DNA from: Zhongshania aquatica
GTDB lineage: Bacteria; Pseudomonadota; Gammaproteobacteria; Pseudomonadales; Spongiibacteraceae
DNA: 64,000 bases
NCBI RefSeq assembly: GCF_027257955.1
Contig: NZ_JANZNQ010000006.1
Coordinates: 1-64,000, forward strand
Reading direction: 5' to 3'
Shown in pieces: positions 9,854-58,502 of this stretch; position 1 is the stretch's first letter, and each line of letters begins with the position of its first letter. Below the pieces are notes generated by a model that saw only the letters and a list, made by a program, of their open reading frames with translations, was not told the DNA's origin and did not search any database. The translations under genes and the position numbers were made by a program.

Positions 9854-9867
9854 GTCTTTTAAAAGAC
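9854..9867. promoter_or_regulatory. 14-bp perfect palindrome at the predicted transcription start
   Basis: GTCTTTTAAAAGAC at 9854-9867 is its own reverse complement and begins seven bases after the TATAAT box, at the expected +1. It could be a repressor operator, or it could simply fold in the leader RNA. No regulator gene is adjacent. Confidence 0.4.
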
Positions 9868-9910
9868 TGAAAATAACAATAATTGCGTCAGTATGACACG
9901 GGAGACAAAA

Positions 9911-12061: not shown

Positions 12062-12124
12062 TGCTTATTTTGTCAGATACTAGGTGCTTTGGGGTATTCC
12101 GCACCTAAACTAAAAATAGCGAGC

Positions 12125-12160
12125 GCCAGTATTAAGCTCTAAGTTATTACTGGCATTTTT
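12125..12160 (+). terminator. Probable terminator after the TonB receptor gene
   Basis: GCCAGTA (12125-12131) pairs with TACTGGC (12148-12154) over a 16-base loop and is followed by ATTTTT. An upstream weaker hairpin TAGGTGC/GCACCTA (12081-12107) has no T-run. The NTF2-like gene starts 26 bp later, so it is probably transcribed partly by read-through or from its own promoter. Confidence 0.55.
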
Positions 12161-12185
12161 GCTATAAGAGCAAAAAGGTAAAATT

Positions 12186-12593: not shown

Positions 12594-12939
12594 AAATGAT
12601 TGTGGTTCATCGGCAAATGATATCGCTTGTTTAAATAAGGCCAACTAGTCGTGATTTAGCGGCTAAATAGGCATATTGCCGGTATATTCTAGTTTGTTGT
12701 CTCTGATTGTTGTGTAAAATCCTTTTAGCCAGCCAAATTACGGCTGGCTTTTTGCTATTAGCGTCTTGGTTTTGGTAATGCTTTAGAGCTTATGCCACAC
12801 TAAGCTTGGAAATTTGTAGAAACTCCTTGTAAATTAAAGGGTTTGATGCGGGTTTTGATGTTATTGATCCATTACGATCTAACGAATGTATTTTGTTACG
12901 GTCTATACTATGAGCTACAAGGCTGTATGAGTAATTAGT
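12594..12939. other. Intergenic region between the NTF2-like and OmpA-domain genes
   Basis: 346 bases hold the terminator at 12727-12753 and otherwise AT-rich sequence. TATACT at 12904-12909 could be a -10 box for the OmpA gene, but no good -35 lies 16-18 bases upstream of it. No RNA gene or credible coding frame is seen. Confidence 0.5.
12727..12753 (+). terminator. Rho-independent terminator after the NTF2-like gene
   Basis: AGCCAGCC (12727-12734) and GGCTGGCT (12742-12749) form a perfect 8-bp stem with a 7-base loop, followed by a T-run to 12753. Confidence 0.85.
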
Positions 12940-13935
12940 TTGATTCCATTGGCGCGGTTCGTAAGTTGTATCCTGTCGTTCATAGTTTTTGCCATGGCGC
13001 CCGCCGCGCGTGCCCAAATAGTTAATGTTGAGATACTCGGCACATCGATAATAGCTCCCGTTACCGATGTGCTAGCAGACGTCAATCTGCTTGCAAGCGA
13101 TTCTGGGGGTATGAACGAATTGCTTGGTGTTGATCTTTTAGGATCTGATTCACTGCTGGGCGTTAGTGTTAGCGGACAAGATATTCTCTTGTTAGGCGCA
13201 CCAATCGCTGGCGGTGGAAGCGGGGCGGACGACTTAAGTGGTTTAAGTGGCCTCGTCGATGGTTCGCAGGGCGCGGTGCTAGAATTTCTTCAAGATACGG
13301 CGATGGGTGATATAAACCCAACCGTGTTGACTCTCTCGTTGCCTGGCTCTGATGGTGAGGGGTCGCAGGGGACCGCTGAGTTTGATGATAGTAAGGATAA
13401 CAAATCTCAGTCTGAATCAAATCAACTAAGTCAGATTTCTAGCGGAAAGGCTGATGCCTGCGAAGATAAAGATCGCGATAGCGTCTGTGATAGCGTGGAT
13501 CAATGTCTAAGCTCGCCTCTGGGTGCGATGGTACTGCCGACTGGTTGTCATTTTGATCGTACTAAACCCCTCGCATTGCAAGGTGTATCTTTTGCTGTAG
13601 GCACCGCAGAGATTACTGCGTCATCTACTAAGACGCTTCAAAGAGTGGTCCAAATGATCACGTTTATGCCAGATACAATGATTGAAGTAGGTGGTCATAC
13701 CGACGATGTTGGTAGCGATAGTGCGAATCAATATTTGTCTGAGAAACGCGCGCTTGCAGTTAAGGACTATCTTGTCGCTGCGGGTGTCCCTGAAAAACAA
13801 TTAGTCATAAAGGGATACGGTGAAACTCAAGCGGCGGCCTCAATTGAGGGCTTATCTGGACGAGCGTTGAGTGACGCTCGCAGCCAAAATCGGCGAGTGG
13901 AAGTACGTGTGCTCGGCGAATACCATCAGCCTTGA
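12940..13935 (+). CDS. Secreted OmpA-domain protein, in frame with the next gene
   Basis: 331 residues from a TTG start, the only in-frame start that gives a full signal peptide (MIPLARFVSCILSFIVFAMA, cleavage near ARA-QI). No clear ribosome site precedes it. Residues 26-170 are rich in Gly, Leu, Ser and Asp with repeated LLG/GSD units and no known domain. Residues 173-203 hold a cysteine-containing thrombospondin-type-3-like Ca2+ motif (DKDRDSVCDSVDQC). Residues about 205-330 are an OmpA peptidoglycan-binding domain (GGHTDDVGSD ... NRRVEVRV). The stop is a single TGA followed by C; the twelve codons after it are open and run straight into the transporter gene in the same frame. Confidence 0.8.
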   Translation: MIPLARFVSCILSFIVFAMAPAARAQIVNVEILGTSIIAPVTDVLADVNLLASDSGGMNELLGVDLLGSDSLLGVSVSGQDILLLGAPIAGGGSGADDLSGLSGLVDGSQGAVLEFLQDTAMGDINPTVLTLSLPGSDGEGSQGTAEFDDSKDNKSQSESNQLSQISSGKADACEDKDRDSVCDSVDQCLSSPLGAMVLPTGCHFDRTKPLALQGVSFAVGTAEITASSTKTLQRVVQMITFMPDTMIEVGGHTDDVGSDSANQYLSEKRALAVKDYLVAAGVPEKQLVIKGYGETQAAASIEGLSGRALSDARSQNRRVEVRVLGEYHQP

Positions 13936-13971
13936 CCTTCGGGCGACGATAATAGAATTTTTGGAGTAAAT

Positions 13972-15660
13972 ATGGCAATTGATCTACCCCCCATTATTCC
14001 CCCGCAGGCGTCGACTGCTGATCGAATTGAGCAGTACGCAGCGGTACAATCTGACTCGGTTATTGAAGTAAAAGTTGGTGGCTATGATCTGCGAATTTCT
14101 GGTAATCGTTATTTAAGCCGTGAACAAATTGATCTTGTTATGAGCCGAGTTAAAACTCCCGCTCAGGCTGTAAACGCACTGAATCAAGCGTATTACCAGC
14201 TCGGGCATCTTTTAGTTACGGTATATTTCGCACACCGTGATAAGACTATTTTTGCGCATGTCATCAATGGTCATTTGTCGGAAATTAAAGCCCCAGATAG
14301 CCTATATCCTTATTTTTCAAAATTGATTGGCGATGAGGATTTAAGCCGTACCGAATTTGAAACACAGAGAGTCTTGGCCGATCTCAAAAGTGAACGAGCC
14401 GGCTTAAATTATGCTGTTAGTTACCAACTTTCAGATGACCCTACGGCCTACACTATTGTGCTTACCGAGTCAGAAAAGGACGACCACGATGGCACCGATC
14501 TGAGCCTAAGTACTAATAATTTCGGCAACCGTTTTCTTGGCCGGTATTTTGCCAATGCTACTATAAAGCATGATTTTAGCTCAGGTATAGAAGCATCGTT
14601 ATCCTACGACCGAGCGCTAACAGCACTTGGCGAAGTGAATGGCGGTAAGTACTACAATGGGTATAGTTTTCGGATGAATTATCCGAGTAGCTTTGGATTG
14701 TATGGTATAGAAGCGCGCTATACAGAGTACGAAAGAGAAGCATTGGGGGTCGCTGCGGGGGGGAGTCCGGCTACTGCCGCCGCGTGTTCTATTCCTCTGG
14801 TGTGCGGATTAGCTAGCAATTTACTTGGGATAGATTTGGGCGGTGGCGCGACAAATGAAACCCTGCTGAATTTATATTCAGAGACCAGTAGTATTGCGAT
14901 TACCGGTGAGCAAGTAGTGAGTAGCGATTCGTTGCATCGCTTCACCGTGTCTGAACGCTTAGAAAAAGTAGATAGTGTTATTGATGTTAAAGACTTTGGT
15001 ACGGCTTTAGATGAGCCACAGACAAGCCTCGAGCTAGGGTTGAAATACAATAAGCTCCTACGGTTGTTTGGTGCCGGTACTCAAATTACTGCACAAGGTT
15101 TTGTAGAGGCGGGGCTAGCCTCTGATGCTGGTACGTTAGGCACTGACACTCGCGAGGGTGTGGTGGCAACGGGCCGGAGAACGAGTGAATTTCTGTTATT
15201 TAAGCCGCGTCTAGGTTTAAAATCCGCGGTGGGGAATTGGGCTACTTTTAACATAAATATCATTAGTCAATTTTCGGACGATCAGCAATTACCTCTTCAA
15301 CAACAGTTTTTTCTGGGCGGTGCTGCAGGTTTGCACGCATATTTGCCCGGCGTATTAGTTGGCGATTCGGGTACCTATACCAAGTTGTCTTTGGATAGTA
15401 ATGGCGTTCCTTTGTTTGGGCTCATGTTCAAGCCAGTACTTTTTGTGGAACATGGTCAGGTTTGGTTTGAAGATGCTGTTGGGCAAGCTGGTGATGTTCG
15501 CGCACTAGGAGATGCTGGCTTTAGTGTGAAAGCGGAACTGGGTAAACACTTTGTTACCGAAGTTTTAGCGGCGACTCCAATTTATGACGATAATCTTGAC
15601 GATGACGTTTTATCGGAGTTAGAGGTTAATTTTTTCTGGCGTTTGTCCGTTACTTTTTAA
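13972..15660 (+). CDS. Two-partner-secretion-type outer-membrane transporter (ShlB/FhaC-like)
   Basis: 562 residues. The start at 13972 is supported by TTGGAG six bases upstream, yet the N-terminus (MAIDLPPIIPPQASTADRIEQY) has no signal peptide and looks like the mature start of a TpsB protein. Residues about 25-160 resemble one or two POTRA domains (IEVKVGGYDLRISGNRYLSREQID ... AYYQLGHLLVTVYF). The remainder is a barrel of the ShlB/FhaC type, including the LPLQQQFFLGGAAGLHAYLPG region, and ends in aromatic VTF. An outer-membrane protein needs a Sec signal, so it may be made by TGA read-through from the preceding OmpA gene or by an unrecognised start. No large TpsA exoprotein gene is adjacent. 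Confidence 0.78.
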   Translation: MAIDLPPIIPPQASTADRIEQYAAVQSDSVIEVKVGGYDLRISGNRYLSREQIDLVMSRVKTPAQAVNALNQAYYQLGHLLVTVYFAHRDKTIFAHVINGHLSEIKAPDSLYPYFSKLIGDEDLSRTEFETQRVLADLKSERAGLNYAVSYQLSDDPTAYTIVLTESEKDDHDGTDLSLSTNNFGNRFLGRYFANATIKHDFSSGIEASLSYDRALTALGEVNGGKYYNGYSFRMNYPSSFGLYGIEARYTEYEREALGVAAGGSPATAAACSIPLVCGLASNLLGIDLGGGATNETLLNLYSETSSIAITGEQVVSSDSLHRFTVSERLEKVDSVIDVKDFGTALDEPQTSLELGLKYNKLLRLFGAGTQITAQGFVEAGLASDAGTLGTDTREGVVATGRRTSEFLLFKPRLGLKSAVGNWATFNINIISQFSDDQQLPLQQQFFLGGAAGLHAYLPGVLVGDSGTYTKLSLDSNGVPLFGLMFKPVLFVEHGQVWFEDAVGQAGDVRALGDAGFSVKAELGKHFVTEVLAATPIYDDNLDDDVLSELEVNFFWRLSVTF

Positions 15661-41417: not shown

Positions 41418-44400
41418 CTACTGTTCGCCGTGCTCTACTTTATACAGCAGGTCAATGCTTTGAGCTTTTCCAGACTGAGCCTTCAGACCTAAATTCTTGC
41501 TGAGGGAGTAGTCGAGCTGCACACTGCCAGCAGGGGTAAATAGGTTTTGCACATAGCTAATGAAAAGTTCAGGCGTGAGGTATTTCCCCACCACCAGCGA
41601 ACTATCTTCGTAGCTATCGCCGCCTTGTAAGCTGATCACATCGACACCAAAGGTGTTCTGTAAGGTGTTGGTAATTCCCCTGCTTTGTGAAATACCCAAG
41701 GCTGTTGCTGCATTCATTACTTGATTCGCGTCTGACTTGTTCATATCAGACGGTGCTTTGCCAGTGATTAGAATTGCCATCACATCTGTGGGCGGTAGTG
41801 CGGGGTCAGAGAACAGCTCGCTGCGAATATCTTGTGCAAAACCGCCAATATTGACGCCGACCGTCGCGCTTTTAGTTTCCCTCACGGCCGTAATATTAAG
41901 ACCGGGGTTATCAAGTGGGCCTTGAAATATAAGGAGCCCACGCTGCACATTTAATTTTTGGCCGTAGGCTTCGTAAACGCCGTCGTAAAGCGACAAAGAG
42001 CCGAAGGCTTGTGTGGCCGCATCCGATTTTTGTGTAACTTTTAATTCGCCACCCAAACGTGTACTCAGTCCGTAACCCTTAAACGCAAAACTATCATTGA
42101 GAGTGATCTGCACGCGGGTGTCGATTGGCCTTGATGGATTGGCATTCCGCTCGACGCGCGAGTTTACAATTTGTTCGTCTGGGGAAACACCCACCGCCTG
42201 TTCCGGCAGCGTTTTAAGGGTAAAGTTACCCTTTGGAATAGCTAAGGTTCCGCGTATTTTTATCAGTTCTGGTGTCAGGCTTGCGCTAATGTCAGGAGAG
42301 ATCAGTACGAAGGCATCGCTTCTATCTAACGCGGTAATGTTTTCGCCGCTGATACGAATGTCGCCGGTTACTCCGGCGTTGCCACCGAGCGTACCCTGGC
42401 CGTTGATGGCCAAAATACCGTCTCCAGAGCGAATGTGGCTGTTTAGTTGCCATGGGCCGCGGCTATCAAAATTAATATTGGCATTGGCGTCTTTTAGGGA
42501 CAGTCCAAGTTCTGGTAATTCCATTTTGACGTCGCTTAAACTCAGTTTGCCGTCGGCTATCGGTGCCGATATTTGCCCAGCAGTGATAATGTTTGCGCTT
42601 AACTCGCCGTCTAATTTTTCTAGTTGAGGGAAGAGTCCACCTATCCAGCGAAGATTGCTGAAACCGCCGTTGATAGACCCTGTTAGCTCGCTGCTGGCTG
42701 TGAGTCCGCTGGTATTGATATTTGCTTTTATACTGCCGACATCATCGATATTAAATAGCGCGTTCGCCTTTAATTTATTGTGCTCGATATTCGCCTTTGT
42801 GCTTAATGTTGCCAGATACTCGACCGCGTCTTGTTCTTCGTTTGCCTGATACGCGATACGAATTGGCCCGCTGCCGAGATCGAGTTCACCGTTGAGATCG
42901 TCGCTTTTACCGCTGATTGAAAAGCGGCTATTTAATGTCCCTGTGATAGTGGCGCCCGCAGGTAATCCCGCCGCAAATCGATTGAGTGAAAAGGAGTCTA
43001 TGTGCCCGTCGGCACGAATGCTGCCATTGTCTAAGTTTGCGTTGCCGTAAATTCGGGTATCGTTTTGCGTTAAGCAAAAGTTTGCCAGCGTGACCTTGTT
43101 GGGGCCAAGGTCAATTTTACTGTCTTTTTCTAGTTGCCACGGTCCACTCACGGCGCTATCTAGCGCGAGGGACTTGATGGTGCTTAGCCAGCGATATTTT
43201 GTGGCTGTTTGCTGCAGTGCACCGGTTATTGCGACGTCGAGGTGTTTATCTCCATCAATTAAACCAATTACCAATTGATGTTGTTGAATGCTTCCTTTTG
43301 CATGCAAATTTAGCGCTGCATTGTTTAATACTGAGGCCGAGATGCCTGAACTTTCAAGGTCGAGTTTAATTGCGGCGGCGGTATCGGTTTCTAAGTCTAT
43401 CTGCGCTGCTGCAATACTGTAGTTCTGGTACTGTAGTTTACTTAGCGCAACATCGGCTTTTATTTCAGGTGAACGACCTTCGTCAAAAAACGTAGTGATT
43501 GCACTACCCTTCAACATACCTGTTGAGCTTATCCCGCCATGAAGTTGGGGTAAAATCTGTTCGAGTTTAGGGGCGTTTAATACCCAATTAAACTCACTTT
43601 TGTCGAGCAATTTCCCGTCTGCAGCTAGGGTGTTGTCGCCAAGTTGAAGGTTTAGTTTGTCAAATGTCTGGCCTTTGTCATTTACGGTAACTGTTCCGCT
43701 ACCTGAGACGGTTTTATCTGCAATATGGCCAGACAAAGTAGCAATATTTATAGCGGCCTGGTAGGTCTGGTTCTGCCAATACCCTGTGGTACTTAGGTCA
43801 ATTGATAATTTGACAGGCCAGTCTGGAGTCAGAGAAGTAGTGTCAACATCGTCGGCGGCTAATTTGAGTTGCCAGCTCACTTTTTCCGCTTGGCTTTGCG
43901 TTGGATGACTCAGTAAAGCATTCGCATTAAATTCGCCTGCGAGGCTTAATTTTCCTGCGTCAGTTTGTAAGTTGAAGCTACTTAGGACGATGGCGAGCTT
44001 ATCACCGCGCAGTGTTAATTCAACATCGGCGGGTTTCGCAAGCACACCATCGACGATCGATTGCGTTTTCGACGTATTGTTTGAGTACTTTTCGTTCTCC
44101 GAAGGCATTGTCGAGACGAGTTGGCTGTGGAGATTTAACGCGTAATTTTGCCAAGTACCCTGCAATCGAAACTGGCCCTCTGTGCTTGTTAGATTGATAT
44201 TTTTGTGCGCCTCGGCTGAGTTTTTCGCTGGGTCATTTACAGGCAGTGCAAGCACCAGTTTTTGCCAGTCAAAGTTAGCGTCTAGCCGGATTTTTTCAAT
44301 ATCGACGGAGGCTTGTGATGGCTCATACCAGTCGGAAATGTCGATGTCGCCATCAATTTCTGAGGGCCGGGTAAGTTTATGACTCAGTCGCAAGTGTGCG

Positions 44401-45119
44401 AGGTCGCCTTTAATTTTGGCTGCACCGCTTGATACTGGCTGATTTGGTAGGCGTAATGACCAATCTAGGTTTAATCGCATTTGGTAGGGTGGGCGATTGT
44501 TTAGCTTGCCGCTAAGTTTTGCCGAATATTCCGAAGCTTTAATCTCTAATTTGGCAATGTTCGTGTTTATTAAACCGCTGTGTGCGGACAGTGAAATAGC
44601 ATCGATGGATTGGATGCTGTCACCTTGGCGAATAGTTACCCCACTTATTTTCGCGTCTTTTAGTGAGACGGGAATCGGCAGACGGAGTGAGGGCCACGGA
44701 GACGGCGGCGAGGTTTCCTTTGCTGAATCTGGCGCAGCATGAATATCGATGTTCAGACTGTCAATATGCAGCTTGGAAATCAAAAACTCGCCACCGAGTA
44801 TGCCCCATAAGCTCCAGTGACTATTTATTGACGCGATACTGATGTCAGCACTATCTAGTGGTAGGTGTAGATCTTTTAATTGAATACCAGTGGCGAGGGT
44901 GCCGCTATATTCTGAGAATGTTGCCTGCGGAGACACAAATGACAAACTTCGACTTAACAGCCAATCGCTGCCGCGTTGCGTGTCGAGGGTAAAGTAGAGC
45001 GCGGCGATCAGCGTGACTATCAAAAGGACTACGCTGAAAACACCTCGAACAATCCAGCGGCCTAGCAGGCGCAATTGCTGTGTTGGCGGTCTTGATGTTT
45101 TGTCCTTGTGCAGACTCAT
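41418..45119 (-). CDS. tamB: Translocation and assembly module protein TamB
   Basis: 1233 residues. One N-terminal membrane helix (about 22-45) is followed by a very long, repetitive beta-rich periplasmic stretch (AsmA-like and taco-like beta-helix) and the conserved C-terminal DUF490/TamB domain (FKGYGLSTRLGGELKV, GQKLNVQRGLLIFQGPLDNPGLNITAVRE, LPPTDVMAILITGKAPSDMN). TamB spans the periplasm and, with TamA, supports outer-membrane protein assembly and lipid transport. It overlaps tamA by four bases (ATGA). The length is usual. Confidence 0.93.
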   Translation of the reverse strand: MSLHKDKTSRPPTQQLRLLGRWIVRGVFSVVLLIVTLIAALYFTLDTQRGSDWLLSRSLSFVSPQATFSEYSGTLATGIQLKDLHLPLDSADISIASINSHWSLWGILGGEFLISKLHIDSLNIDIHAAPDSAKETSPPSPWPSLRLPIPVSLKDAKISGVTIRQGDSIQSIDAISLSAHSGLINTNIAKLEIKASEYSAKLSGKLNNRPPYQMRLNLDWSLRLPNQPVSSGAAKIKGDLAHLRLSHKLTRPSEIDGDIDISDWYEPSQASVDIEKIRLDANFDWQKLVLALPVNDPAKNSAEAHKNINLTSTEGQFRLQGTWQNYALNLHSQLVSTMPSENEKYSNNTSKTQSIVDGVLAKPADVELTLRGDKLAIVLSSFNLQTDAGKLSLAGEFNANALLSHPTQSQAEKVSWQLKLAADDVDTTSLTPDWPVKLSIDLSTTGYWQNQTYQAAINIATLSGHIADKTVSGSGTVTVNDKGQTFDKLNLQLGDNTLAADGKLLDKSEFNWVLNAPKLEQILPQLHGGISSTGMLKGSAITTFFDEGRSPEIKADVALSKLQYQNYSIAAAQIDLETDTAAAIKLDLESSGISASVLNNAALNLHAKGSIQQHQLVIGLIDGDKHLDVAITGALQQTATKYRWLSTIKSLALDSAVSGPWQLEKDSKIDLGPNKVTLANFCLTQNDTRIYGNANLDNGSIRADGHIDSFSLNRFAAGLPAGATITGTLNSRFSISGKSDDLNGELDLGSGPIRIAYQANEEQDAVEYLATLSTKANIEHNKLKANALFNIDDVGSIKANINTSGLTASSELTGSINGGFSNLRWIGGLFPQLEKLDGELSANIITAGQISAPIADGKLSLSDVKMELPELGLSLKDANANINFDSRGPWQLNSHIRSGDGILAINGQGTLGGNAGVTGDIRISGENITALDRSDAFVLISPDISASLTPELIKIRGTLAIPKGNFTLKTLPEQAVGVSPDEQIVNSRVERNANPSRPIDTRVQITLNDSFAFKGYGLSTRLGGELKVTQKSDAATQAFGSLSLYDGVYEAYGQKLNVQRGLLIFQGPLDNPGLNITAVRETKSATVGVNIGGFAQDIRSELFSDPALPPTDVMAILITGKAPSDMNKSDANQVMNAATALGISQSRGITNTLQNTFGVDVISLQGGDSYEDSSLVVGKYLTPELFISYVQNLFTPAGSVQLDYSLSKNLGLKAQSGKAQSIDLLYKVEHGEQ

Positions 45120-46918
45120 AGATCTGGTCCCATAGACAGATGGAAGCGGAAGCCGCCGTCTTTCAGCGGAAAACCAAAATCAACACGAATTGGACCAATG
45201 GGTGAAAACCAGCGCAAGCCTAGGCCTGCACTGCTATAGAAGGTGAAGTCATTGGTGTCAAATGCGTTACCGGCGTCGTAAAATGTGGCGAGGGCAAATT
45301 CGCCCCACACCTTATGGTCGTATTCAATACTGCCGGTTAACCTATGTTTGCCGCCTTCAACTTCGCCGTCACTATTCTCTGGGCCCAAGGACTCATAGGC
45401 AAAGCCGCGCACGCTGTTGTCGCCACCGGCAAAAAATCGCAAGGACGCGGGTAACTCAGAAAAGTCATTTAATGCGGTTAAGCCGAGCCCGCCGCGACTG
45501 ATAAGACGGCCACCGAGCAGGGGCAGTATTACTTTGCCGTCTAGCTCTACTTGCGCGAGACTAACATTCGATACCACTCCGTCGAGTGCGCCGCGCGCCG
45601 CCGCGCTTATACGCCAGCCTTGGGTTGGATAGCGTCGATCATTGGCTTTGCTGCGCGCGTAAGCGATACCCGGCATAAGCAATGTTGATGAATTACTGTC
45701 GCCAGCGATGTCAAAATTTTCGCGGAGAAATTTCAAACTTAGGGTTTGCAACCAGCCATTGTCGGTCAGCGAGATAAGGGCAACTTCGGCTCTGTAGCTG
45801 GTACTTTCTGATGTGTCCGTGTCTTTGCGTTGCACACCGGTAGACCACACGGTTTTATCACTGAGCGGCTTTTCGCCGGGTTGCGAATATTGGTAGCCAA
45901 GATTCGATAGCACCGGAGAATATTGGCTGGTGATTTGATAGGTGTCACCGTCGTCGTTTATGCGCCGATTATTTAGGCCATAGCTAATACGAGGGCCAGT
46001 GTCGGTCGAAGCTCCAATACCTGCAGTGGTTTCATACTGTTTTTTGTGGGTGAAAGTAATATTGGTCGCGACGGTATTGGTGCTGGGGTCTGGATTTTCT
46101 TGGTCGACGTTTACAGAAGAGAAGTAGTTACTGCTCACCAAGTTATTTTGCAGAGTAATGAGTTTATCTGTTTCAAATGGATCGCTGCTTTGAAAGGGTA
46201 AATAGCGTTTTAACAAGGCATCATTCAGCAGTGAAGGGCCGAAGTTTATCGCGCCAAAGTGGTAGCGAGCTCCGCTTTGAAAAATGATGCTAATCGCGGC
46301 GGTATTGGTATCAGTGTTTACCTCCAGTTTATGATCAGTGAATTTACCGTCGAAATAGCCAGCATTTCGCGCCCGTTGGCTAATCTGTTTTTTGATGTCT
46401 TCGTAGTCGCTATGCAATAACTTTTCGCCGACTTTTGTGGGTAGTTTAGCTAGGTAGTCCTTGAATACGGGATCTTCGCTGCCGTCACCGTCAATGCGAA
46501 CGTCTAGCTTCGCAATTTTGGTCGCTGGACCGGGGTTTAGCGCTAAGTGGAGTTGCCAGCATTCGTAGGTTGTCTCTTTTTTGATGAGATTGAGTGGATT
46601 AACCGCGGACACGATGCCGTTGTTGTTTCCTTGGGCTGTTATCTCTTTCTTGGATTTTGTTAGTGTCCATTTGCCGTGGTAGTAACCGAGTGCGCGCAGT
46701 GCTTCAGATATCTTATCGTCGCTGTTCCGAAGGCGGTTGCGTAGTTTTAATTCAGATAGCTGACAGCTAATGTCGGTAACAACAAAATGCGCGCGAATAT
46801 TTTCTTGGAGTTTTGCATTGCCGCCGCTAATAGACAGGCTTGGTGTTTCATCTGCCAACGTATTGATGCAAATGCAAAATAATAACAAAGCAATTAGCGG
46901 GTGGGCCCGTTTAAACAT
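45116..46918 (-). CDS. tamA: Translocation and assembly module outer-membrane protein TamA
   Basis: 600 residues with a signal peptide ending TLADE. Three POTRA domains (for example the GYYHGKW region and KIAKLDVRIDG, then GARYHFGAINF) lead to an Omp85 barrel with GRLISRGGLGLTALND, RFFAGGDNSVRGFAYESLGP (the lid-loop RGF motif) and a C-terminal GPIRVDFGFPL ... FHLSMGPDL. The pair tamA-tamB is a conserved operon. It is the first gene of the unit; a 250-bp gap without recognised features separates it from the divergent MFS gene. Confidence 0.93.
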   Translation of the reverse strand: MFKRAHPLIALLLFCICINTLADETPSLSISGGNAKLQENIRAHFVVTDISCQLSELKLRNRLRNSDDKISEALRALGYYHGKWTLTKSKKEITAQGNNNGIVSAVNPLNLIKKETTYECWQLHLALNPGPATKIAKLDVRIDGDGSEDPVFKDYLAKLPTKVGEKLLHSDYEDIKKQISQRARNAGYFDGKFTDHKLEVNTDTNTAAISIIFQSGARYHFGAINFGPSLLNDALLKRYLPFQSSDPFETDKLITLQNNLVSSNYFSSVNVDQENPDPSTNTVATNITFTHKKQYETTAGIGASTDTGPRISYGLNNRRINDDGDTYQITSQYSPVLSNLGYQYSQPGEKPLSDKTVWSTGVQRKDTDTSESTSYRAEVALISLTDNGWLQTLSLKFLRENFDIAGDSNSSTLLMPGIAYARSKANDRRYPTQGWRISAAARGALDGVVSNVSLAQVELDGKVILPLLGGRLISRGGLGLTALNDFSELPASLRFFAGGDNSVRGFAYESLGPENSDGEVEGGKHRLTGSIEYDHKVWGEFALATFYDAGNAFDTNDFTFYSSAGLGLRWFSPIGPIRVDFGFPLKDGGFRFHLSMGPDL

Positions 46919-51520: not shown

Positions 51521-51865
51521 GGTGAGCCCTCGTTGCATAGCTGGGCATTTGCAAGATACTTTGCGCTGAAGCAGGCGGTGCTTGTATCGTTTCCAAATTT
51601 AATTCTTTTGTGGCATCCCCGCGTCGACTCTATTCATAAGGGTTTCATTTCTTTCACTTTGGCTATTGGGTCGATGCTGGCCTGATTTCTGCTATATCAC
51701 TGCTAATTGGCCTAAATAGGCGCCACGTCTGACTATTCGCCATTGATTCTAGGTGTGCTCGTCAAAATAATGACTATTATTGGGCGTGGATGAATCATAT
51801 TTGACGTGGCGTCATTAAATTGACAGGTATTCGCTGGTGCTCTCTGTGAGCGAGGTTAGTCAGCT
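51521..51865. other. Intergenic region before the C-ring-like locus
   Basis: 345 bases with no coding frame recognised. A perfect -35-like TTGACA at 51820-51825 and TTGACG at 51801-51806 are present without a good -10 at the correct distance. No FliA-type or sigma-54 (TGGC-N9-TTGC) site was seen, which would be expected for a flagellar unit. A short interrupted repeat GCCTA-AA-TAGGC lies at 51710-51721. Confidence 0.5.
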
Positions 51866-52546
51866 GTGGGACAGGGTGTGGAACAACAAAATTCTTCAAT
51901 AACAGTACTTAAAGGCGTCGTCGTTTTGATGGCGCTGTGCTTGCTCGCCGGTTTGGTATTGGGGGGCGAATTAATATGGCAGCAGCTGCGCGTCAGCGAT
52001 GAGGCAGAAATAGTCGGAGCGGCGACGGATCTACGCAGCCAGCGTGAAGACTACCTTGAACGCAAAGTGCTGGTTTTGGCGTCATCGTTTATGGATGTGG
52101 CGGATTTGCGCGTAAGCGTACAAACGTCGAATGGTAGCGACGGCCGCGAACTTAAAACCGTGTTTGCTATTGTTAATAGCGATGTCCGAAATTCTGAAAC
52201 TGAACAATTCTTAAATACTGCTATTAGGTCCGGTTTGGCGCTAAACGACGCGCTTGGTGATCAATTAACGGTGCAATTTCATGCCTTTCAAGTCCCTCAA
52301 ACTAATAAGAATTTTCTGTTTGTTCTTGAAATTAAGCACCGACTTTATCTGGTCCTAGGTTTGCTCTTATTTGGCACCGTGGGACTGACGTTTTCATTCC
52401 ATCGTTACCGACAATCGCGTGTGACTGATTTGCAGTTAGATGGTGATTATCGCGATCAGTTAACGCGTTTTAAAAGCATTGCTGACGAAGAGCCTAGCCG
52501 TGTAGCCAGTGTTTTAAGTGAGTGGTTAAACGGAGCACCTAGTTGA
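51866..52546 (+). CDS. Miniature FliF: single ring-building domain with FliG-binding tail
   Basis: 226 residues from a GTG; a second GTG at 51878 is possible. Membrane helices lie at about 14-36 and 159-178. The domain between them (about 61-143) matches the third ring-building motif of FliF: YLERKVLVLASSFMDVADLRVSV, then ETEQFLNTAIRSGLALNDALGDQLTVQFHAF, the usual form being EEL-x-LVKxAVGFDxxRGDxVxVxNxPF. The tail at 201-223 (RFKSIADEEPSRVASVLSEW) resembles the FliF peptide that binds the FliG N-terminus (DxPExVAxVIRxWL). Ordinary FliF is some 550 residues with RBM1, RBM2 and RBM3, so about 300 residues are missing. The FliG gene overlaps its stop. I infer an inner-membrane ring or anchor for the C-ring proteins downstream. 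Confidence 0.75.
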   Translation: MGQGVEQQNSSITVLKGVVVLMALCLLAGLVLGGELIWQQLRVSDEAEIVGAATDLRSQREDYLERKVLVLASSFMDVADLRVSVQTSNGSDGRELKTVFAIVNSDVRNSETEQFLNTAIRSGLALNDALGDQLTVQFHAFQVPQTNKNFLFVLEIKHRLYLVLGLLLFGTVGLTFSFHRYRQSRVTDLQLDGDYRDQLTRFKSIADEEPSRVASVLSEWLNGAPS

Positions 52547-53541
52547 TGGCGACATCGTTGCATTTGTCAGATGCTGAGCAGGCCGCAGCGCTAATTATGT
52601 CCTTAGATAAAGAGCAGGCCGCAGCGGTGATTCGTGCTCTTCCACCAGCTGATGTTCATCGCTTAGCGGCAGTGATGAGCGGTATGGATGCGCCAAGTAG
52701 TACAGAATTTAATCAGGTGTTGACGCGTTTTCATCGCGATGTGAAAACCTTTTCGGGTGTGAAACCCAAGGCCAGCGAGGCAGTGCTCAGTTTGCTTGAG
52801 GAGGCGCTGGGTGAAGAGCGTGCTCATTTGCTCGGTGAGCGCTTGGCGTTGCACGGCCAATCTCAGCATATCGGTAAATTAAAGTGGTTGGAGGCGGCGA
52901 CGATTGTAGAGATTATTCGTCGCGAGCACCCCCAAATTCAGGCCGTAGTTATTGCCTGTTTGGAGCCTGCGCAGGGTAGTCAGGTACTGTTAGCATTTGA
53001 AGAGTCCCGGCGTCTGGATTTGTTAGCGAGGCTGTCTGGATTAACAAAGTTAACGCCTGCAGCACTTGAAGAATTAGATTACCTACTGGAACAGTATTTT
53101 ACAGAAGTCGGAAGACCGCTTGGGAGAGCGATGACAGGGGACTCGCTAGCTGCGGCATTGCTGAACGAAATGGATGTGAGCGTGGAAAGCAGTCTGCTTA
53201 ATGGGCTAAGAGCCACGCAGCCTGATCACGCGGCGCGCGTGGAAGAGTTGATGTTCGGTTTTGCACAGATAAATCATTTGTCGGATCAGGATCTTGTTAT
53301 TTTACTTCGGCAGCTTACGCCTGAGATTCTTGCGCCCGCGATGGCGGAGACGGGCGCGCAGCTACGGCGACGATTTATAAGCTTGATCAGCGATGAGCAA
53401 AAGCAGGGTTTGAAGTTATTACTCGGGCGATATACGCAAGCTGAATGCGCTGCTGCACAAGCAGAAATAGTTATGGTTGCTAAACAAATGGCTGCGGTTG
53501 GTGAAATTATTCTCGATGCGCGCAAAATTGATGTATTTTGA
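52546..53541 (+). CDS. fliG: FliG-like switch protein
   Basis: 331 residues, normal FliG length. The ATG overlaps the mini-FliF stop as TGATG (a TTG three bases earlier is in frame). The N-terminal domain (LSDAEQAAALIMSLDKEQAAAVIRAL) suits FliF binding. The middle domain has EHPQ at 127-130, the FliM-binding motif. The C-terminal domain starts MFGFAQINHLSDQDLVILLRQL at 236-257 and ends in AEIVMVAKQMAAVGEII. In motor FliGs the matching stretch reads MFxFEDLVxLDDRxIQxLLREVD; here several charged positions are neutral (DDR to SDQ, the later D to T), so contact with MotA may be lost. The order FliF-FliG is the usual flagellar one. Confidence 0.88.
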   Translation: MATSLHLSDAEQAAALIMSLDKEQAAAVIRALPPADVHRLAAVMSGMDAPSSTEFNQVLTRFHRDVKTFSGVKPKASEAVLSLLEEALGEERAHLLGERLALHGQSQHIGKLKWLEAATIVEIIRREHPQIQAVVIACLEPAQGSQVLLAFEESRRLDLLARLSGLTKLTPAALEELDYLLEQYFTEVGRPLGRAMTGDSLAAALLNEMDVSVESSLLNGLRATQPDHAARVEELMFGFAQINHLSDQDLVILLRQLTPEILAPAMAETGAQLRRRFISLISDEQKQGLKLLLGRYTQAECAAAQAEIVMVAKQMAAVGEIILDARKIDVF

Positions 53542-53638
53542 TGAGTATCTTTGGCGCGGCTTAGATTAAACTGGGTTACAAGTGTTATCGCGCTAATGTG
53601 TTTCTTTAATTAATTTTTAAACAAGGACGTTTAAGATC

Positions 53639-53983
53639 ATGTCGGCTTTGAATATATCCTTACTCGAAGAACTCCGTGGCTTCATGGAAGATGACGTCAT
53701 TACCTTGATAGATGAATTTGAAATTGATACCCGCGAGCGCTTAGAAAGCATAGGCCAGGCTATCGAAAATCAAGACGCCGAAAAACTACGCACGATGGCG
53801 CACACGATGAAGGGGGGCGCTGCGTCGCTGGGCGCAGACAATCTCTCCCAGCACTTTCGCGGCCTGGAACTGCGTGGACGCGATGCCAGTTTTCAAGATA
53901 TTCAGCAAGATTTTAGCAACGCCCAGCGCTGTTTCACTGAAGCAATGATGTTAATACGTAAATGGTTGGCTGAGGGAAAATAA
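53639..53983 (+). CDS. Stand-alone histidine phosphotransfer (Hpt) protein
   Basis: 114 residues, all helical. The phosphorylation motif AHTMKGGAASLGA puts the His at 55, followed by FRGLELRGRD, typical of Hpt four-helix bundles. It lies 97 bp after fliG, with AAGGACG before the ATG. In Pseudomonas-type flagellar clusters an Hpt gene occurs between fliJ and fliK, that is between fliG and fliM, so its place here is the ancestral one. A partner could be the CheY-like receiver downstream; no hybrid kinase is nearby. Confidence 0.85.
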   Translation: MSALNISLLEELRGFMEDDVITLIDEFEIDTRERLESIGQAIENQDAEKLRTMAHTMKGGAASLGADNLSQHFRGLELRGRDASFQDIQQDFSNAQRCFTEAMMLIRKWLAEGK

Positions 53984-54103
53984 CACATGTCAATTTATTG
54001 ACGTAAAACCCTTCTCCTAAGTATATGATATTTATAGTAATAGTTTTGGCCTAAGTCTTGCTGTAAGCACGTGTATTCCTTTTTAAGTGCTGGTCTGGGC
54101 CTA

Positions 54104-55057
54104 ATGGTGAAAGAGTTACTTTCTCAAGCAGAAATCGATGCCTTATTGGCAAATGTGCAAGCACAAACGCCAAGGCAAGATCGCGCTAACTCTGTTGCCG
54201 CCCGCTCCTTCGATTTAGCGAGCAGACGGCAACTAACAAAGCGCCAGCTTCCTGGCTTAGAACAAATTAATAAGCGTTTTGCTGAGTACTTCCGCGAGAG
54301 CGTTTCTGATGTCTTGGGCCAAGGGGTTGATGTTGCGGCTATAGATCTGCAATTCCAAGCTTACAGCGAATATTTACACTCTTTGTACGTACCTACCTCT
54401 CTTAATATTATGCGCTTGCACCCTCTGAAAGGTGCGGCAATGCTAGTCTTTGATGCGCGCCTTGTGTTTCGTTTGGTCGATATGTTTTTTGGTGGCAGCG
54501 GTAGCCAAGGTCATGCTGATGGTCGTGATTTTAGCAAGGTAGAACGCCGTGTCATTACTCGGCTTATTGAGCGTGCTCATCTGGACTATGATCGGGCGTG
54601 GCGCTTGACGAGCACTATCAAGAGTGAAGCGTTGTCAATGGAAGTGAATCCTGCGATGGCCGGTATCGCCGGTCAGGCAGAGACGATAGTGGTTTGCCGT
54701 TTTCAGATTGAATTAGATAGCGGTGGCGGCGGTGAATTTGATATTGCATTGCCACTCACCATGCTAGAGCCGGTAATGGATTTGCTCAGTAAAAATGCGT
54801 CTTCAGAGCAGTTAAGTAGCAACACCCATTGGCAGGCTACGCTTGGTTTGTCTCTGTTGGATACCAAGGTTAGCACTCGCTGCACACTAGCAGAGCCAAT
54901 GATGACCTTAGGGCAAGTGGCTAACTTGCAGGTCGGTGATGTCATTCCTATTAGCAACCGTCAGCCGTCGGTGTTAAAGGCATCTGGTGTGACCATGGCG
55001 CGGGGGCAATTGGGGGTTGTGGATGGCTATCTCACATTAAAGATTATTGATGAGTAG
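54104..55057 (+). CDS. fliM: FliM flagellar switch protein
   Basis: 317 residues from the ATG at 54104; the open frame has an earlier GTG, but FliM proteins start just before the CheY-binding peptide. That peptide is intact: LSQAEIDALL at residues 5-14. The middle CheC-like domain carries LIERAHLDYDRAW and the FFGGSGSQGHADGRDFSKVERR loop, equivalent to the GGxG segment that contacts FliG. The C-terminal SpoA domain (TLGQVANLQVGDVIPI ... GQLGVVDGYLTLKI) would pair with FliN. All regions needed for a C-ring subunit and for response to a CheY are present, although no motor genes are near. Confidence 0.92.
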   Translation: MVKELLSQAEIDALLANVQAQTPRQDRANSVAARSFDLASRRQLTKRQLPGLEQINKRFAEYFRESVSDVLGQGVDVAAIDLQFQAYSEYLHSLYVPTSLNIMRLHPLKGAAMLVFDARLVFRLVDMFFGGSGSQGHADGRDFSKVERRVITRLIERAHLDYDRAWRLTSTIKSEALSMEVNPAMAGIAGQAETIVVCRFQIELDSGGGGEFDIALPLTMLEPVMDLLSKNASSEQLSSNTHWQATLGLSLLDTKVSTRCTLAEPMMTLGQVANLQVGDVIPISNRQPSVLKASGVTMARGQLGVVDGYLTLKIIDE

Positions 55058-55117
55058 CATTTTGAGCCCTATGCGTTTTGTACAAACAAATAAATGATGC
55101 GGTAATGAGATTGAACT

Positions 55118-55531
55118 ATGGATAAACAAGATGAACTCCGCCGTCAGCGCCAAGCATTAAAGGAAGAGATGGAGGCGGCCGACAAGGGTGAGCTTCAAGG
55201 TGCTAGGCAAACCGGCGTTAAGCGCATGCCAGAGGGCGCATCTGCCAGACTTCGTGAGCGAGGGGCGACTGGGCCGGATTTGTCGATGGTGATGGATATT
55301 CCTGTGCGGCTTACCCTGGAGGTAGGCGGAAGTAATATGCCTATTCGCGATTTACTGCAATTACATCAGGGCGCTATTGTCGAGCTCGATCGGAAGGCGG
55401 GTGAGCCATTAGATGTATTAGTAAATGGTACATTGATCGCGCGTGGTGAAGTGGTAGTGATTGAAGACAAACTAGGAATTCGACTGACCGAGGTGGTTAG
55501 CCAGGCTGAGCGATTAAAGTCCTTGAGTTAA
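55118..55531 (+). CDS. fliN: FliN flagellar switch protein
   Basis: 137 residues. A charged N-terminal tail of about 50 residues leads to the SpoA domain LSMVMDIPVRLTLEVGGSNM, IRDLLQLHQGAIVELDRKAGEPLDVLVNGTLIARGEVVVIEDKLGIRLTEV, nearly identical in pattern to canonical FliN. It forms the base of the C-ring with FliM. In ordinary flagellar loci fliO, fliP, fliQ and fliR follow directly; here an unrelated membrane protein gene and flhG follow. The spacing to fliM is 60 bp. Confidence 0.94.
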   Translation: MDKQDELRRQRQALKEEMEAADKGELQGARQTGVKRMPEGASARLRERGATGPDLSMVMDIPVRLTLEVGGSNMPIRDLLQLHQGAIVELDRKAGEPLDVLVNGTLIARGEVVVIEDKLGIRLTEVVSQAERLKSLS

Positions 55532-55602
55532 GCAAGGTTAAACCCTAATAACGATTTATCTAGGTGTGTCAAAATCGGGAACAGCTCGGAGATAAAAAGA
55601 AT

Positions 55603-56169
55603 ATGAAACGTCGGCTGGTATTTTTAAGTCGCCAACAGGCGAGTCTTCTTGAAATTGCAGATATGCTCAAACAACCACATCTGCAAGGTTGGCGCTTGCG
55701 AGTGTTTACCCGTGCTATTGGCGATGTTCAGCGCATGGGCTTGCCCGTTGCATCGCCATTGATGTTGACCAATATGATGGGCGGTGCGTGGCGGGGCGGT
55801 TTTTGGGGGACTGCTTTGGGCTTGCTGCTGTTTCTAATTGTTATGCCTCTGTTTGATATAGAGGAGGGACTAGTTAGAAACATTATTCTGTATTCTTTGC
55901 CGACTATGCTGTTGTTTTTTGGCGCGTGGGAGGGCGGATTGCTCGGTCTAATGCAAGACAACGATGCCTTGGCAGATTATCAAGACGCTGCTGCGGAGGG
56001 ATTATTTGTTCTATTGGTGGATGTTCAAGACGTTGATCAGCGCTTGTTAAAAAAGATTATGGCTATGTGTGATGCTGAACAAATCGGCGAACACACGCAG
56101 CGTATGTGGGGCTTTCCTTGGCGCGAGAATATTTACGTCAAGGCTGAAGAATTGGCGGTTGTGGCATGA
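55603..56169 (+). CDS. Unrecognised two-helix membrane protein between fliN and flhG
   Basis: 188 residues from the ATG with GGAG upstream; the open frame offers a GTG 39 bases earlier. Residues 1-45 and 128-155 look like cytoplasmic alpha/beta segments (RLVFLSRQQASLLEIADML; AAEGLFVLLVDVQDVDQRLLKKIM). Two membrane helices at about 63-84 and 93-117 are rich in GxxxG pairs (GGAWRGGFWG and GAWEGGLLG). The layout is like DUF1269/YflT-type stress membrane proteins with a glycine-zipper hairpin, but I cannot assign a family. It overlaps flhG by four bases (ATGA), so it belongs to the same translation unit. It takes the place where the export genes fliOPQR-flhBA-flhF normally lie. Confidence 0.7.
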   Translation: MKRRLVFLSRQQASLLEIADMLKQPHLQGWRLRVFTRAIGDVQRMGLPVASPLMLTNMMGGAWRGGFWGTALGLLLFLIVMPLFDIEEGLVRNIILYSLPTMLLFFGAWEGGLLGLMQDNDALADYQDAAAEGLFVLLVDVQDVDQRLLKKIMAMCDAEQIGEHTQRMWGFPWRENIYVKAEELAVVA

Positions 56170-57005
56170 CGCGCGCTATTCAGGTGATCGCGGTTAGCGG
56201 TGGCAAAGGGGGGGTGGGCAAAACCAACGTTGCTATAAATCTGAGTGTTGGATTAGCTGAGTTGGGTTCCCGTGTCGTGCTGTTGGACGCCGATTTTAGC
56301 TTGGCAAATGTCGATGTGCTGCTAGGTTTAAAGGCATCCGACACCATTGAGCAAGTGCTTGATGGCAGCTGTTCGTTGCAAGATATCATGCTGACTGGGC
56401 CAGCGGGTATTAAGATTATTCCCGCTTCTTCGGGCACTCGCCGTCTAAGTATGCTCAGCTCACTAGAGCATGCCGGGCTTATCCGTGCTTTTAGTGATAT
56501 TTCAAATCAATTGGATGTTTTGGTGGTCGACACCGCCGCGGGAATTTCAGACTCGGTGGTCAATTTTCTTAGCGCTGCCCACGAAGTATTGATGGTGGTT
56601 TGTAACGAGCCTAGCTCTATCACGGATGCCTATGCCTTAATCAAATTACTCAATCGAGACTTTGGCCGAAGTCGTTTCCGTATTGTCGCCAATATGGTGG
56701 CTGACGAGCACGAGGGGCGCCAATTGTTTGATAGCTTGAGCGCCGTCTGTGGTCGGTTTTTAGATGTCGCATTAATCTATGCGGGCACAGTGCCTTTTGA
56801 TACAGCGCTTCGTGAATCTGTGCGTCAGCAAGTGCCGGTGATAACGGCGGCGCCAAGCAGCGGCTCAGCGCGCGCGCTGCGAGAGTTAGCCAAACACGCC
56901 CATACATGGCCTTTGCCTGCCAAGTCCCAAGGACATTTGGTGTTTTTTGTTGAACGGTTGTTGGCGAGTAACCGCATTAGCGCCGGTGAGGTAGCTGATA
57001 ATTGA
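56166..57005 (+). CDS. flhG: FlhG/FleN-type MinD-like ATPase
   Basis: 279 residues. The deviant Walker A GGKGGVGKT is at 12-20, with LLDADFSLANVDVLLGL, DTAAGISDSVVNFL and CNEPSSITDAYALIKLL, all diagnostic of FlhG (FleN, YlxH). The N-terminal DQAxxLR activator peptide that stimulates FlhF is absent, and there is no flhF gene. FlhG is known to bind FliM/FliN and help C-ring assembly and flagellar number control; that job could still apply to the mini-locus. The C-terminal helix LVFFVERLLASN may be the membrane-targeting helix. CheY starts one base within its stop (TGATG). Confidence 0.9.
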   Translation: MTRAIQVIAVSGGKGGVGKTNVAINLSVGLAELGSRVVLLDADFSLANVDVLLGLKASDTIEQVLDGSCSLQDIMLTGPAGIKIIPASSGTRRLSMLSSLEHAGLIRAFSDISNQLDVLVVDTAAGISDSVVNFLSAAHEVLMVVCNEPSSITDAYALIKLLNRDFGRSRFRIVANMVADEHEGRQLFDSLSAVCGRFLDVALIYAGTVPFDTALRESVRQQVPVITAAPSSGSARALRELAKHAHTWPLPAKSQGHLVFFVERLLASNRISAGEVADN

Positions 57006-57478
57006 TGAGTGATCAAGAACTAGAAGGCCTATCGCCCAACCCGTTTAGTGGCGGCCATGGGGAGCTTGACCCGGTCTCAGCTAGGGCGTGTACCCCCGGC
57101 GAGATGCGCATATTAGTTGTTGAAGGTTTTTCAACAATGAGACGAATTATCCGCAATTTACTTGCCGATTTAGGTTATCGCTACGTAAGTGAAGCCGAAG
57201 ATGGCTTGGCTGCGCTGCCGATGCTGCACAATCAGCGATTTGATTTTGTTATTACCGATTTCGTAATGCAGCGGATGTCGGGCTTGGATTTGCTTCGTGC
57301 GATAAGGGCCGACGCGAATTTGGCGCACATCCCGGTTTTAATGATTACGGCTGACGCGGAGCGCGAACAGATCATTCAGGCGGCTGAGGCGGGTGTAAAT
57401 GGCTATATTGTTAAGCCGTTTACGGCGGCAACCTTGGAAAACAAAATTCTCACTATAGTTAAAACCATGAGCTCATAA
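57005..57478 (+). CDS. CheY-like receiver with altered acidic pair and N-terminal extension
   Basis: 157 residues, about 30 longer than CheY owing to an N-terminal tail with SPNPFSGGHGELDP. From residue 34 it is plainly the motor CheY: ILVVEGFSTMRRIIRNLLADLGY, ITDFVMQRMSGLDLLRAIRAD, ITADAEREQIIQAAEAGVNGYIVKPFTAATLENKI. The phospho-acceptor Asp85, Thr115 and Lys137 remain. The usual Asp-Asp pair that holds Mg2+ is Glu40-Gly41, and the WNMP after the Asp is FVMQ. Loss of one metal carboxylate should weaken phosphorylation, so it may act without it or be permanently in one state. It is coupled to flhG. Confidence 0.88.
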   Translation: MSDQELEGLSPNPFSGGHGELDPVSARACTPGEMRILVVEGFSTMRRIIRNLLADLGYRYVSEAEDGLAALPMLHNQRFDFVITDFVMQRMSGLDLLRAIRADANLAHIPVLMITADAEREQIIQAAEAGVNGYIVKPFTAATLENKILTIVKTMSS

Positions 57479-57623
57479 AACTCAGATCTTTACTCTACTT
57501 AACGACATAGTTTAATTACTTAGTCTGTGCGCTTATGTTTCTGGAATGTGACCGAGCCTGCAGCATGAGGTTTATTCATCGTGGATAATATGTATCTAGG
57601 TATGTCTATTGTCGGGTTAAAGT

Positions 57624-58502
57624 GTGAACGAGCAAGAACACGAAGGTATATTGGCGATTTTCCTTGCAGAAGCAGAGGAGATTGCTCATCACCTGACAGA
57701 ACAGTTTGCGGAATTACGCTACGGCTATGATGGTCAACGGATACTTGACGATATACACCGCGGTTTTCATACCCTGTATGGTGGAGCCACTGTTTTAAAG
57801 CTAGATCAGCTTGCCGAATGTGCGTTATTAGCGGAACGGGTAATGGACCGAGTGCGCCATCGGCGTGTATCGATGAACCCTAGTCTGGTGTCTTTATTTG
57901 TATCCGCTATCGGCGCAATCGAGTTAATGTTGGCACGACATATAAATCATCAGCAAGTGAGTCCGATTGATGATGATTTAAAAGTCCGCTTAATTCGCGC
58001 CGGTGATAGAAATAGTAAGCCCACCGCAGCGAATAATCCTATAGATCCGCTCAGCGATCCCATGGGGGTGTTTTTTGATGGCCGCTTACGGCCGCGAGAC
58101 AAGCATTTATCAAGTTTGGCTCCCTCTGTTTTGCAGTACGAGAGCGGCAGCTTTAGGCCGATAGTTGGGCAGGCACCTGAAAATGGGGTTGTCAGTGCGC
58201 AGGCTGATAGCGATGCTGACGTAGCACAAAATTCCTCTACTCCCCGTTATTTCGAATCCGGTAATACCGCGATGTCGACACTCACGCGCCAATCGTTTTC
58301 TGAGCTAAGTAGTTCCTCAATGCCGGTGCCGGCGGTGGCCGAGAATGGCGAACTAGGCAGTTTGGTGGCTGAGCTAGCGTGGGTAAGAAAGCGCTTAATG
58401 AAGTTTCATGGCAAGGGTTACTCTTCCGAATTAGATAAAGCGCTCGCGTATTTAGATTTGGTTGCCCAGGATTTTGAAAGTTTCCATCAAGACTCCGAGT
58501 AA
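57624..58502 (+). CDS. Kinase-less CheA-like protein (P1 and P3 only)
   Basis: 292 residues from a GTG. Residues 1-105 form a P1/Hpt-like domain with the His at 49 in GFHTLYGGATVLKL; the normal motif is HTLKGG, so Lys is Tyr here. A long low-complexity linker (about 125-240) follows. Residues 242-288 (GELGSLVAELAWVRKRLMKFHGKGYSSELDKALAYLDLVAQDF) resemble the CheA dimerisation domain P3. The ATP-binding P4 and CheW-like P5 are absent and no frame for them exists before ccmA. The product could be a dimeric phosphate acceptor or a scaffold for the CheY-like protein. Confidence 0.7.
   Translation: MNEQEHEGILAIFLAEAEEIAHHLTEQFAELRYGYDGQRILDDIHRGFHTLYGGATVLKLDQLAECALLAERVMDRVRHRRVSMNPSLVSLFVSAIGAIELMLARHINHQQVSPIDDDLKVRLIRAGDRNSKPTAANNPIDPLSDPMGVFFDGRLRPRDKHLSSLAPSVLQYESGSFRPIVGQAPENGVVSAQADSDADVAQNSSTPRYFESGNTAMSTLTRQSFSELSSSSMPVPAVAENGELGSLVAELAWVRKRLMKFHGKGYSSELDKALAYLDLVAQDFESFHQDSE

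Follow-up and report, generated by a model that had tools for sequence, protein, structure and literature searches.

A second flagellar switch set beside ccmA in Zhongshania aquatica looks unable to make torque and may act as a membrane signalling platform

We analysed a 64,000-nucleotide stretch of the 4.49 Mb genome of Zhongshania aquatica (assembly GCF_027257955.1, contig NZ_JANZNQ010000006.1, positions 1–64,000; hereafter the window), in which genes for flagellar switch and signalling proteins lie at 51866–58502. The locus consists of nine intact open frames on the forward strand, all co-directional and with three overlapping junctions (GTTGATGG, GCATGACG and TTGATGAG), as a first-pass annotation of the window had described, and it is flanked by ttcA and ccmA. 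In order, they encode a cut-down FliF (mini-FliF; 51866–52546), FliG2 (52543–53541), an Hpt protein (53639–53983), FliM2 (54071–55057), FliN2 (55118–55531), a small membrane protein (55564–56169), the FleN-type MinD ATPase FlhG2 (56166–57005), CheY2 with an N-terminal extension (57002–57478), and a CheA remnant made of P1 (Hpt) and a tail (57624–58502). The Pfam matches follow the same order: FliG N, M and C, Hpt, FliM with FliMN_C, FliMN_C, a ParA/MinD type, receiver, and Hpt. The assignments draw additionally on alignments for FliG2, Hpt, FliM2, CheY2 and the CheA remnant, on NCBIfam for FliN2 and the CheA remnant, and on trees for FliM2 and FlhG2. FliM2 and FliN2 score above the cut-offs of their NCBIfam models (240 bits against 220, and 114 against 84), and FliG2 scores below that of its own (133.5 against 226.7). 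Taken together, Pfam and the EHPQ and GG-x-G motifs identify homologues of FliG, FliM and FliN that carry their mutual docking motifs. Export, rod, hook, filament and stator genes are all missing between ttcA and ccmA, again in agreement with the first-pass annotation. We did not adopt a reading of the set as SctQ proteins of a type III injectisome, because the FliM and FliN models pass their cut-offs and the locus has no export genes. Pfam assigns no significant family to mini-FliF or to the small membrane protein; the latter is predicted by AlphaFold2 (pLDDT 84) to be a ferredoxin-like domain interrupted by a transmembrane hairpin, with a weak Foldseek match to alternative complex III chain D (E 0.01, TM-score about 0.3).

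The locus was compared across a family sample of 21 genomes, with 18 genomes for the genus itself and two usable genomes (G001 and G002) for a second genus. All 19 relatives fetched have the switch block in the same place, with ttcA on one side and ccmA on the other, and no listed frame of at least 90 residues lies there besides the module genes. Counting the window, FliG2, FliM2, FliN2, CheY2 and P1 are found in 20/20 genomes, and Hpt, FlhG2 and the small membrane protein in 18/20 each. FliM2 stays in open frames of about full length even where identity falls to 38%. Both FliM2 and FliM1, the FliM of a separate flagellar cluster described below, are present in 20 of the 21 genomes; the exception, G003, is 70% complete and has neither FliM type, although FlhA is present, and no clear ccmA. 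In a FliM tree the two types each form one clade (20 sequences for FliM2) with similar internal branching. Computable ratios of nonsynonymous to synonymous substitution (dN/dS) between near relatives are mostly 0.01–0.15, with some very close pairs reaching 0.29 and mini-FliF at 0.18–0.33, several pairs giving no value owing to saturated synonymous sites. Judged by these sequence comparisons, the nine-gene set is under purifying selection, in line with the conservation that the first-pass annotation had proposed to look for. On the presence of FliM2 in 20 genomes and the dN/dS values, we reject chance frames or decay.

On sequence and model evidence, the first gene is a reduced FliF. Its 226-residue product is predicted to contain a transmembrane helix, one ring-building-type domain (a-b-b-a-b), a second transmembrane helix and a FliG-binding tail, and it lacks the full arrangement of ring-building motifs (RBM1-RBM2-RBM3) and collar between two transmembrane helices. 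The AlphaFold2 model, of moderate confidence (pLDDT 79, predicted TM-score 0.43), has the single domain as an RBM3-type fold followed by the C-terminal tail. A family profile of mini-FliF aligns to positions 330–540 of FliF1 (hhalign E 5.7e-9), 5/15 relatives match YscJ_FliF_C weakly, at E 0.001 in the best case, and Foldseek ranks S-ring chains of Salmonella FliF first among PDB entries (E 3.4e-4, TM-scores 0.30/0.42), with OsmC-type folds as runners-up (E 1e-3 to 1e-2). The kinship to FliF claimed in the first-pass annotation is therefore upheld, despite the missing Pfam match. Mini-FliF is a separate gene in 12/20 genomes and a remnant fused to FliG2 in 8/20 (by eye); within the fusions (L047–L050 and L053–L056) the FliF part ranges from a full anchor to a transmembrane hairpin or a bare tail. 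When the profile was searched against 390 genomes of the order, 188 had a match; outside the family it was mostly long FliF frames that matched, through their C-terminal part, and none among the matches listed from outside the family covered the whole model.

FliG2 retains EHPQ in 20/20 genomes. Residues K264, R281, D288, D289 and R297, which we take in Escherichia coli FliG numbering to be the stator-facing ones, fare differently: in an alignment that crosses a deletion at this point, the first four positions are changed in 20/20 (K264 to Arg in 3) and that of R297 in 19/20. All five charges are conserved in 11/11 FliG1 sequences of the other cluster and in 15 other gammaproteobacterial FliG sequences. 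A ring built on FliG2 thus looks unable to make torque, and the switch set is therefore probably a membrane signalling platform and not a motor.

FliM2 carries the sequence LLSQAEIDALL, and the N-terminal motif [LM]SQxE[IV]DALL associated with CheY and FlhG docking is present in FliM2 of 20/20 genomes against 0/16 for FliM1, the FliM1 of G001 and G002 still having EEIDALM. The same motif occurs in FliM of 64/69 other gammaproteobacteria, a partly biased set in which some loci were picked by a pattern containing the motif and some rows are cut at the N-terminus. A GG-x-G stretch is visible in most rows of the FliM2 alignment. The survival of docking motifs on FliG and FliM, noted in the first-pass annotation, thus extends to all 20 genomes. 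By eye, the phospho-accepting His is kept in 19/20 P1 domains and in all 18 Hpt proteins present. Within the 292-residue CheA remnant, hidden Markov models detect Hpt (P1) alone, and neither the P4 kinase nor the P5 domain was found with Pfam or NCBIfam; of the P1–P3 region originally proposed, P1 stands, and beyond it only a C-terminal LVxEL stretch aligns, by eye, with the CheA of contig C30. In one genome, G013 (L053), the CheY2 phospho-Asp and the P1 His are lost together.

The first-pass annotation had not touched on the control regions, a stand-alone FleQ or the likeness in gene order to the polar cluster beside ccmA. In the gap between ttcA and the operon lies a sigma-54-type −24/−12 site (TGGCCTGATTTCTGC, GG-N10-GC; 51678–51692, forward strand), matched by a loose regular expression and read in the sequence; the same loose pattern is found there in 18/18 genus genomes and finds no such site in the gap of G001 or G002. 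Two palindromes follow, GTCAAAATAATGAC at 51761–51774 and GTCATTAAATTGAC at 51811–51824, 50 nt from the first, and a third, the exact consensus GTCAATTTATTGAC, precedes FliM2 at 53989–54002 (pattern matches, strand not assigned). All three conform to the FleQ box, GTCAAT-N2-ATTGAC (PMC10723142; PMC6120874). A tight pattern recovers the tandem pair in 16 of the 17 other genus genomes, spaced 39–52 nt; in G013 it recovers one upstream box, the second being discernible by reading the sequence. The box before FliM2 is present in 11 of the 17 as well as in the window. Allowing up to two mismatches, GTCAATNNATTGAC has 10 matches in the window against 2.5 expected, and the whole 4.49 Mb genome has four strict matches (GTCAWWWWWWTGAC), three in the operon and one directly before the gene for a stand-alone FleQ homologue.

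This homologue, 452 residues long (contig C10, positions 9655–11013 of stretch L262), has FleQ as its best PDB match (8p53, E 4.6e-120) and keeps the GAFTGA loop. It is present in 18/18 genus genomes, with boxes upstream of its own gene in every case (15 strict, 3 loose). LFRS, which we take to be the cyclic di-GMP motif of FleQ, was not seen in the protein of the window genome. Boxes, stand-alone FleQ and FlhG2 thus occur together in 18/18 genus genomes; in G001 and G002 the boxes and FlhG2 are absent and the regulator was not found at E ≤ 1e-90, a strict cut-off that a more diverged copy could escape. Joint presence and absence of the three amounts to a single evolutionary contrast and is therefore statistically weak. 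With both a promoter-like site and boxes in place, the operon appears to be of the sigma-54, FleQ-regulated type, and binding and activation by FleQ are predicted.

The locus had been described as a C-ring without a flagellum, and here the genome says otherwise. A genome-wide search returned two FliG_C matches, one in the window and the other on contig C14, where a complete flagellar cluster reads flgN-flgM-flgA-flgBCDEFGHIJKL-fliC-...-fliEFGHIJKLMNOPQR-flhBA-flhF-flhG-fliA (many of the names assigned by eye from translations). FlhA is found in 21/21 family genomes. Since the C14 cluster has its own FliF, FliG, FliM, FliN, FlhF and FlhG (suffix 1 where compared), the window locus is a second switch set and its proteins are not the only switch of that flagellum. 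Of the refuting case set out in the first-pass annotation, the complete gene set elsewhere is borne out, and its dependence on the window proteins as sole switch is not. What survives of the earlier interpretation is a conserved, membrane-anchored, C-ring-like set that its sequence suggests is unfit to build or rotate a filament; the idea of a flagellum-less cell does not survive, and nothing in the analysis speaks for the suggested roles in polar marking or division control. Identities between the window and C14 paralogues are 25% for FliG, 28% for FliM, 65% over 78 residues for FliN and 49% for FlhG. A search with FliM1 in 274 genomes of the class gave identities of 22–30% among the matches listed outside its own genome. 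In three relatives (L225, L226 and L228, from G007, G004 and G017) the working cluster is apparently split, with flhB not followed by flhA, unlike the other pieces fetched. CheA and CheW homologues lie on contigs C30 and C63. The C30 cluster (positions 2352–14459 of stretch L238) comprises, by eye, CheB, a methyl-accepting chemotaxis protein, CheR, a CheD-like protein, CheW, CheA and two short CheY proteins; it differs from the ccm-adjacent cluster in the genomes of the order that were read, which suggests that chemotaxis was replaced too.

The gene order hints at where the window locus came from. The polar cluster of G348, a Pseudomonas-like member of the same order, is arranged as fliF-fliG-...-hpt-...-fliM-fliN-...-flhA-flhF-flhG-fliA-cheY-...-cheA-...-ccmABCEF, with hpt a weak match and with a fliF/fliG start that was seen in this genome only. 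The polar clusters of G047 and G083 end at ccm in the same way; that of G222 was found with no ccm within the 40 kb read. The window and all 19 relatives fetched have the G348-type order minus the rest, before ccmA, and this shared order and position make deletion in place the simplest account of how the locus arose. We best read the locus as the native polar flagellar and chemotaxis locus, stripped where it stood. With Pseudomonas-type clusters it has in common the gene order, the place before ccmA and homologous FliG, Hpt (weakly), FliM, FliN, FlhG, CheY and CheA; it differs in lacking export, rod and hook genes, FlhF, sigma-28 and the CheA kinase domain, and in having a reduced FliF, replaced FliG torque residues and the additional small membrane protein. 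Sequence identities point the same way for three of the proteins: FliM2 is 37–41% identical to FliM at 14 other gammaproteobacterial loci against 23–26% for FliM1, FlhG2 reaches 55–60% over long matches against 51–55% for FlhG1, and CheY2 is 56–63% identical to cluster CheY of other gammaproteobacteria where CheY lies in the stretch read. In the FlhG tree, FlhG2 joins ten FlhG rows that come from Pseudomonas and from further members or relatives of the order (split 98/98), whereas FlhG1 groups with six other gammaproteobacteria, near which quick trees also place FlhA1 and FliG1. The working flagellum is thus likely, though not proven, to be an acquired newcomer beside a stripped native locus.

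To our mind there is about an even chance that the stripped native locus still works as an operon, under a control loop of its own, and provides a membrane hub for CheY and FlhG. The cell would have come to rely on the second, complete flagellar cluster, the native locus then being stripped to its switch and signalling parts. Stand-alone FleQ would switch on the sigma-54 promoter upstream of mini-FliF; mini-FliF would anchor FliG2, and FliG2 would recruit FliM2 and FliN2 to form a membrane-bound, C-ring-like platform that could not take stator torque. The N-terminal motif of FliM2 would dock CheY2 and FlhG2, and any FlhG2 free of FliM2 would turn the operon off by binding to FleQ, making the amount of platform self-limiting. 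Its output may be the docking or sequestration of CheY2, P1 and Hpt in a hub that tunes signalling, with swimming left to another motor. The feedback between FleQ, FlhG2 and FliM2 is proposed by analogy with Shewanella putrefaciens, in which one site on FlhG serves both FliM and FlrA, a relative of FleQ (PMC11236974). The narrower claim of a stand-alone, torque-incompetent C-ring, an old ring turned into a membrane scaffold that docks CheY, is self-limited by a private FleQ–FlhG circuit and serves neither secretion nor rotation, we would put somewhat short of even.

Several observations weigh against this reading. As to origin, the identities of FliG to other gammaproteobacteria are reversed (38–45% for FliG1, 30–33% for FliG2), the FliM trees have long branches, and approximately unbiased tests, whose groups were defined once a first quick tree had been made, gave p values of 0.055 when FlhG1 and FlhG2 formed a single clade and 0.079 when FlhG1 was joined to the ten rows of the order. 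As to regulation, FleQ boxes are reported to predict poorly in Pseudomonas fluorescens (PMC6120874), and the four strict boxes in the genome compare with three for a reversed-pattern control, so that only the placement and conservation of the boxes are striking. In 160 kb of outgroup sequence, made up of four stretches of the native-type cluster, the only box lies within ccm; strict boxes therefore seem to belong to the operon as found in this family, and not to the cluster in other lineages. G001 and G002 have neither FlhG2 nor boxes, yet they keep the core of FliG2, FliM2, FliN2, CheY2 and P1, to which the feedback loop is therefore not essential; since the FliM2 motif outlives FlhG2 there, CheY2, present in 20/20, is the likeliest lasting partner. 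CheY2, inspected by eye, has its phospho-Asp in 18/20 genomes (gone in G013 and G018) and lacks the second acidic-pocket residue in 9/20, the clade of the window included, so phospho-signalling may be weak in those genomes.

A serious rival, if on balance an unlikely one, is that the genes are accessory parts of the C14 motor, FliM2 and FliN2 or the whole set being mixed into it or placed beside it as a mosaic C-ring that restores the CheY control lost by FliM1. Such a role would fit the joint occurrence of both FliM types in the 20 genomes that have either, the confinement of the canonical CheY motif to FliM2 (EEIDALM in G001 and G002 aside) and the close similarity of the two FliN proteins, but the set owns an anchor and a FliG devoid of stator-facing residues, and the separate C30 chemotaxis cluster already supplies two short CheY proteins. 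Nor were boxes found around the working flagellum: none in 12 rows before activators beside it (one of which, L286, picked a neighbouring frame), none on the one strand scanned of fifteen 20-kb pieces around FliM1, and none along the 100 kb of contig C14 that was read. The two sets are therefore probably not co-regulated by the stand-alone FleQ.

It is quite doubtful that the operon is instead a device for titrating FleQ and FlhG2, its true output being gene regulation (surface attachment or exopolysaccharide) and the ring serving as sensor only. The operon's own FlhG2, the accompanying FleQ, the sharing of FlhG between FliM and FlrA (PMC11236974) and the resemblance of the tandem boxes to those of P. 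aeruginosa biofilm genes (PMC10723142) would suit such a device; however, the genome's only strict boxes lie at the operon and fleQ, leaving no further target visible at that stringency, and the core persists in G001 and G002, where FlhG2 is absent and FleQ was not found. That the locus is a relic of the former flagellum, in decay and kept by chance, is very improbable: deletion in place, the reduction of mini-FliF to a tail in some species and the double phospho-site loss in G013 are what decay might leave, but full-length FliM2 frames at identities down to 38%, dN/dS values mostly of 0.01–0.15 (up to 0.33 for mini-FliF) and the conserved motif and promoter are not. A second rotary motor without a filament, driven by a MotAB-like stator, can hardly be credited, since in spite of seven MotA_ExbB domain matches across the genome the stator-facing residues of FliG2 are replaced and the locus has no stator gene.

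The individual parts of the favoured arrangement, a signalling platform under its own control loop, have precedents. The FlhF-FlhG-FliM-FlrA switch of S. putrefaciens (PMC11236974, PMC12826062) likewise combines the FliM motif, FlhG and a FleQ/FlrA-type regulator; the window set differs in having no cognate flagellum, its interactions are predicted, and FlhF occurs only in the C14 cluster. C-ring proteins of Campylobacter jejuni act through FlhG besides rotation (PMC6946799), but that ring belongs to the cell's flagella and the window's is a separate set. Borrelia also has two FliG paralogues per cell (PMC7225975), one described as a torque part and the other as needed for flagellar synthesis, whereas here a whole second switch set is present and FliG2 lacks the torque residues. 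The Cle proteins of Caulobacter (PMC5677366) are CheY-like motor binders beside chemotactic CheY, with no separate ring as far as that account goes. A torque-dead ring combined with CheY, FlhG and a private FleQ in the absence of a cognate flagellum appears to be new, and no description of such a system was found in literature whose coverage left most subscription journals outside. If the proposal is true, the signalling half of the flagellar switch has been separated from the motor half in nature, and a C-ring has been kept for reasons besides rotation or export. FliF–FliG fusions with a shrinking FliF, a working FliM without the CheY motif and a FleQ with strict boxes only at this operon and its own gene would then allow the roles of FliM, FlhG and FleQ to be tested one by one. 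Elsewhere in the window, a gene pair at 41418–46918 resembles, by eye, TamB and TamA and is ordinary.

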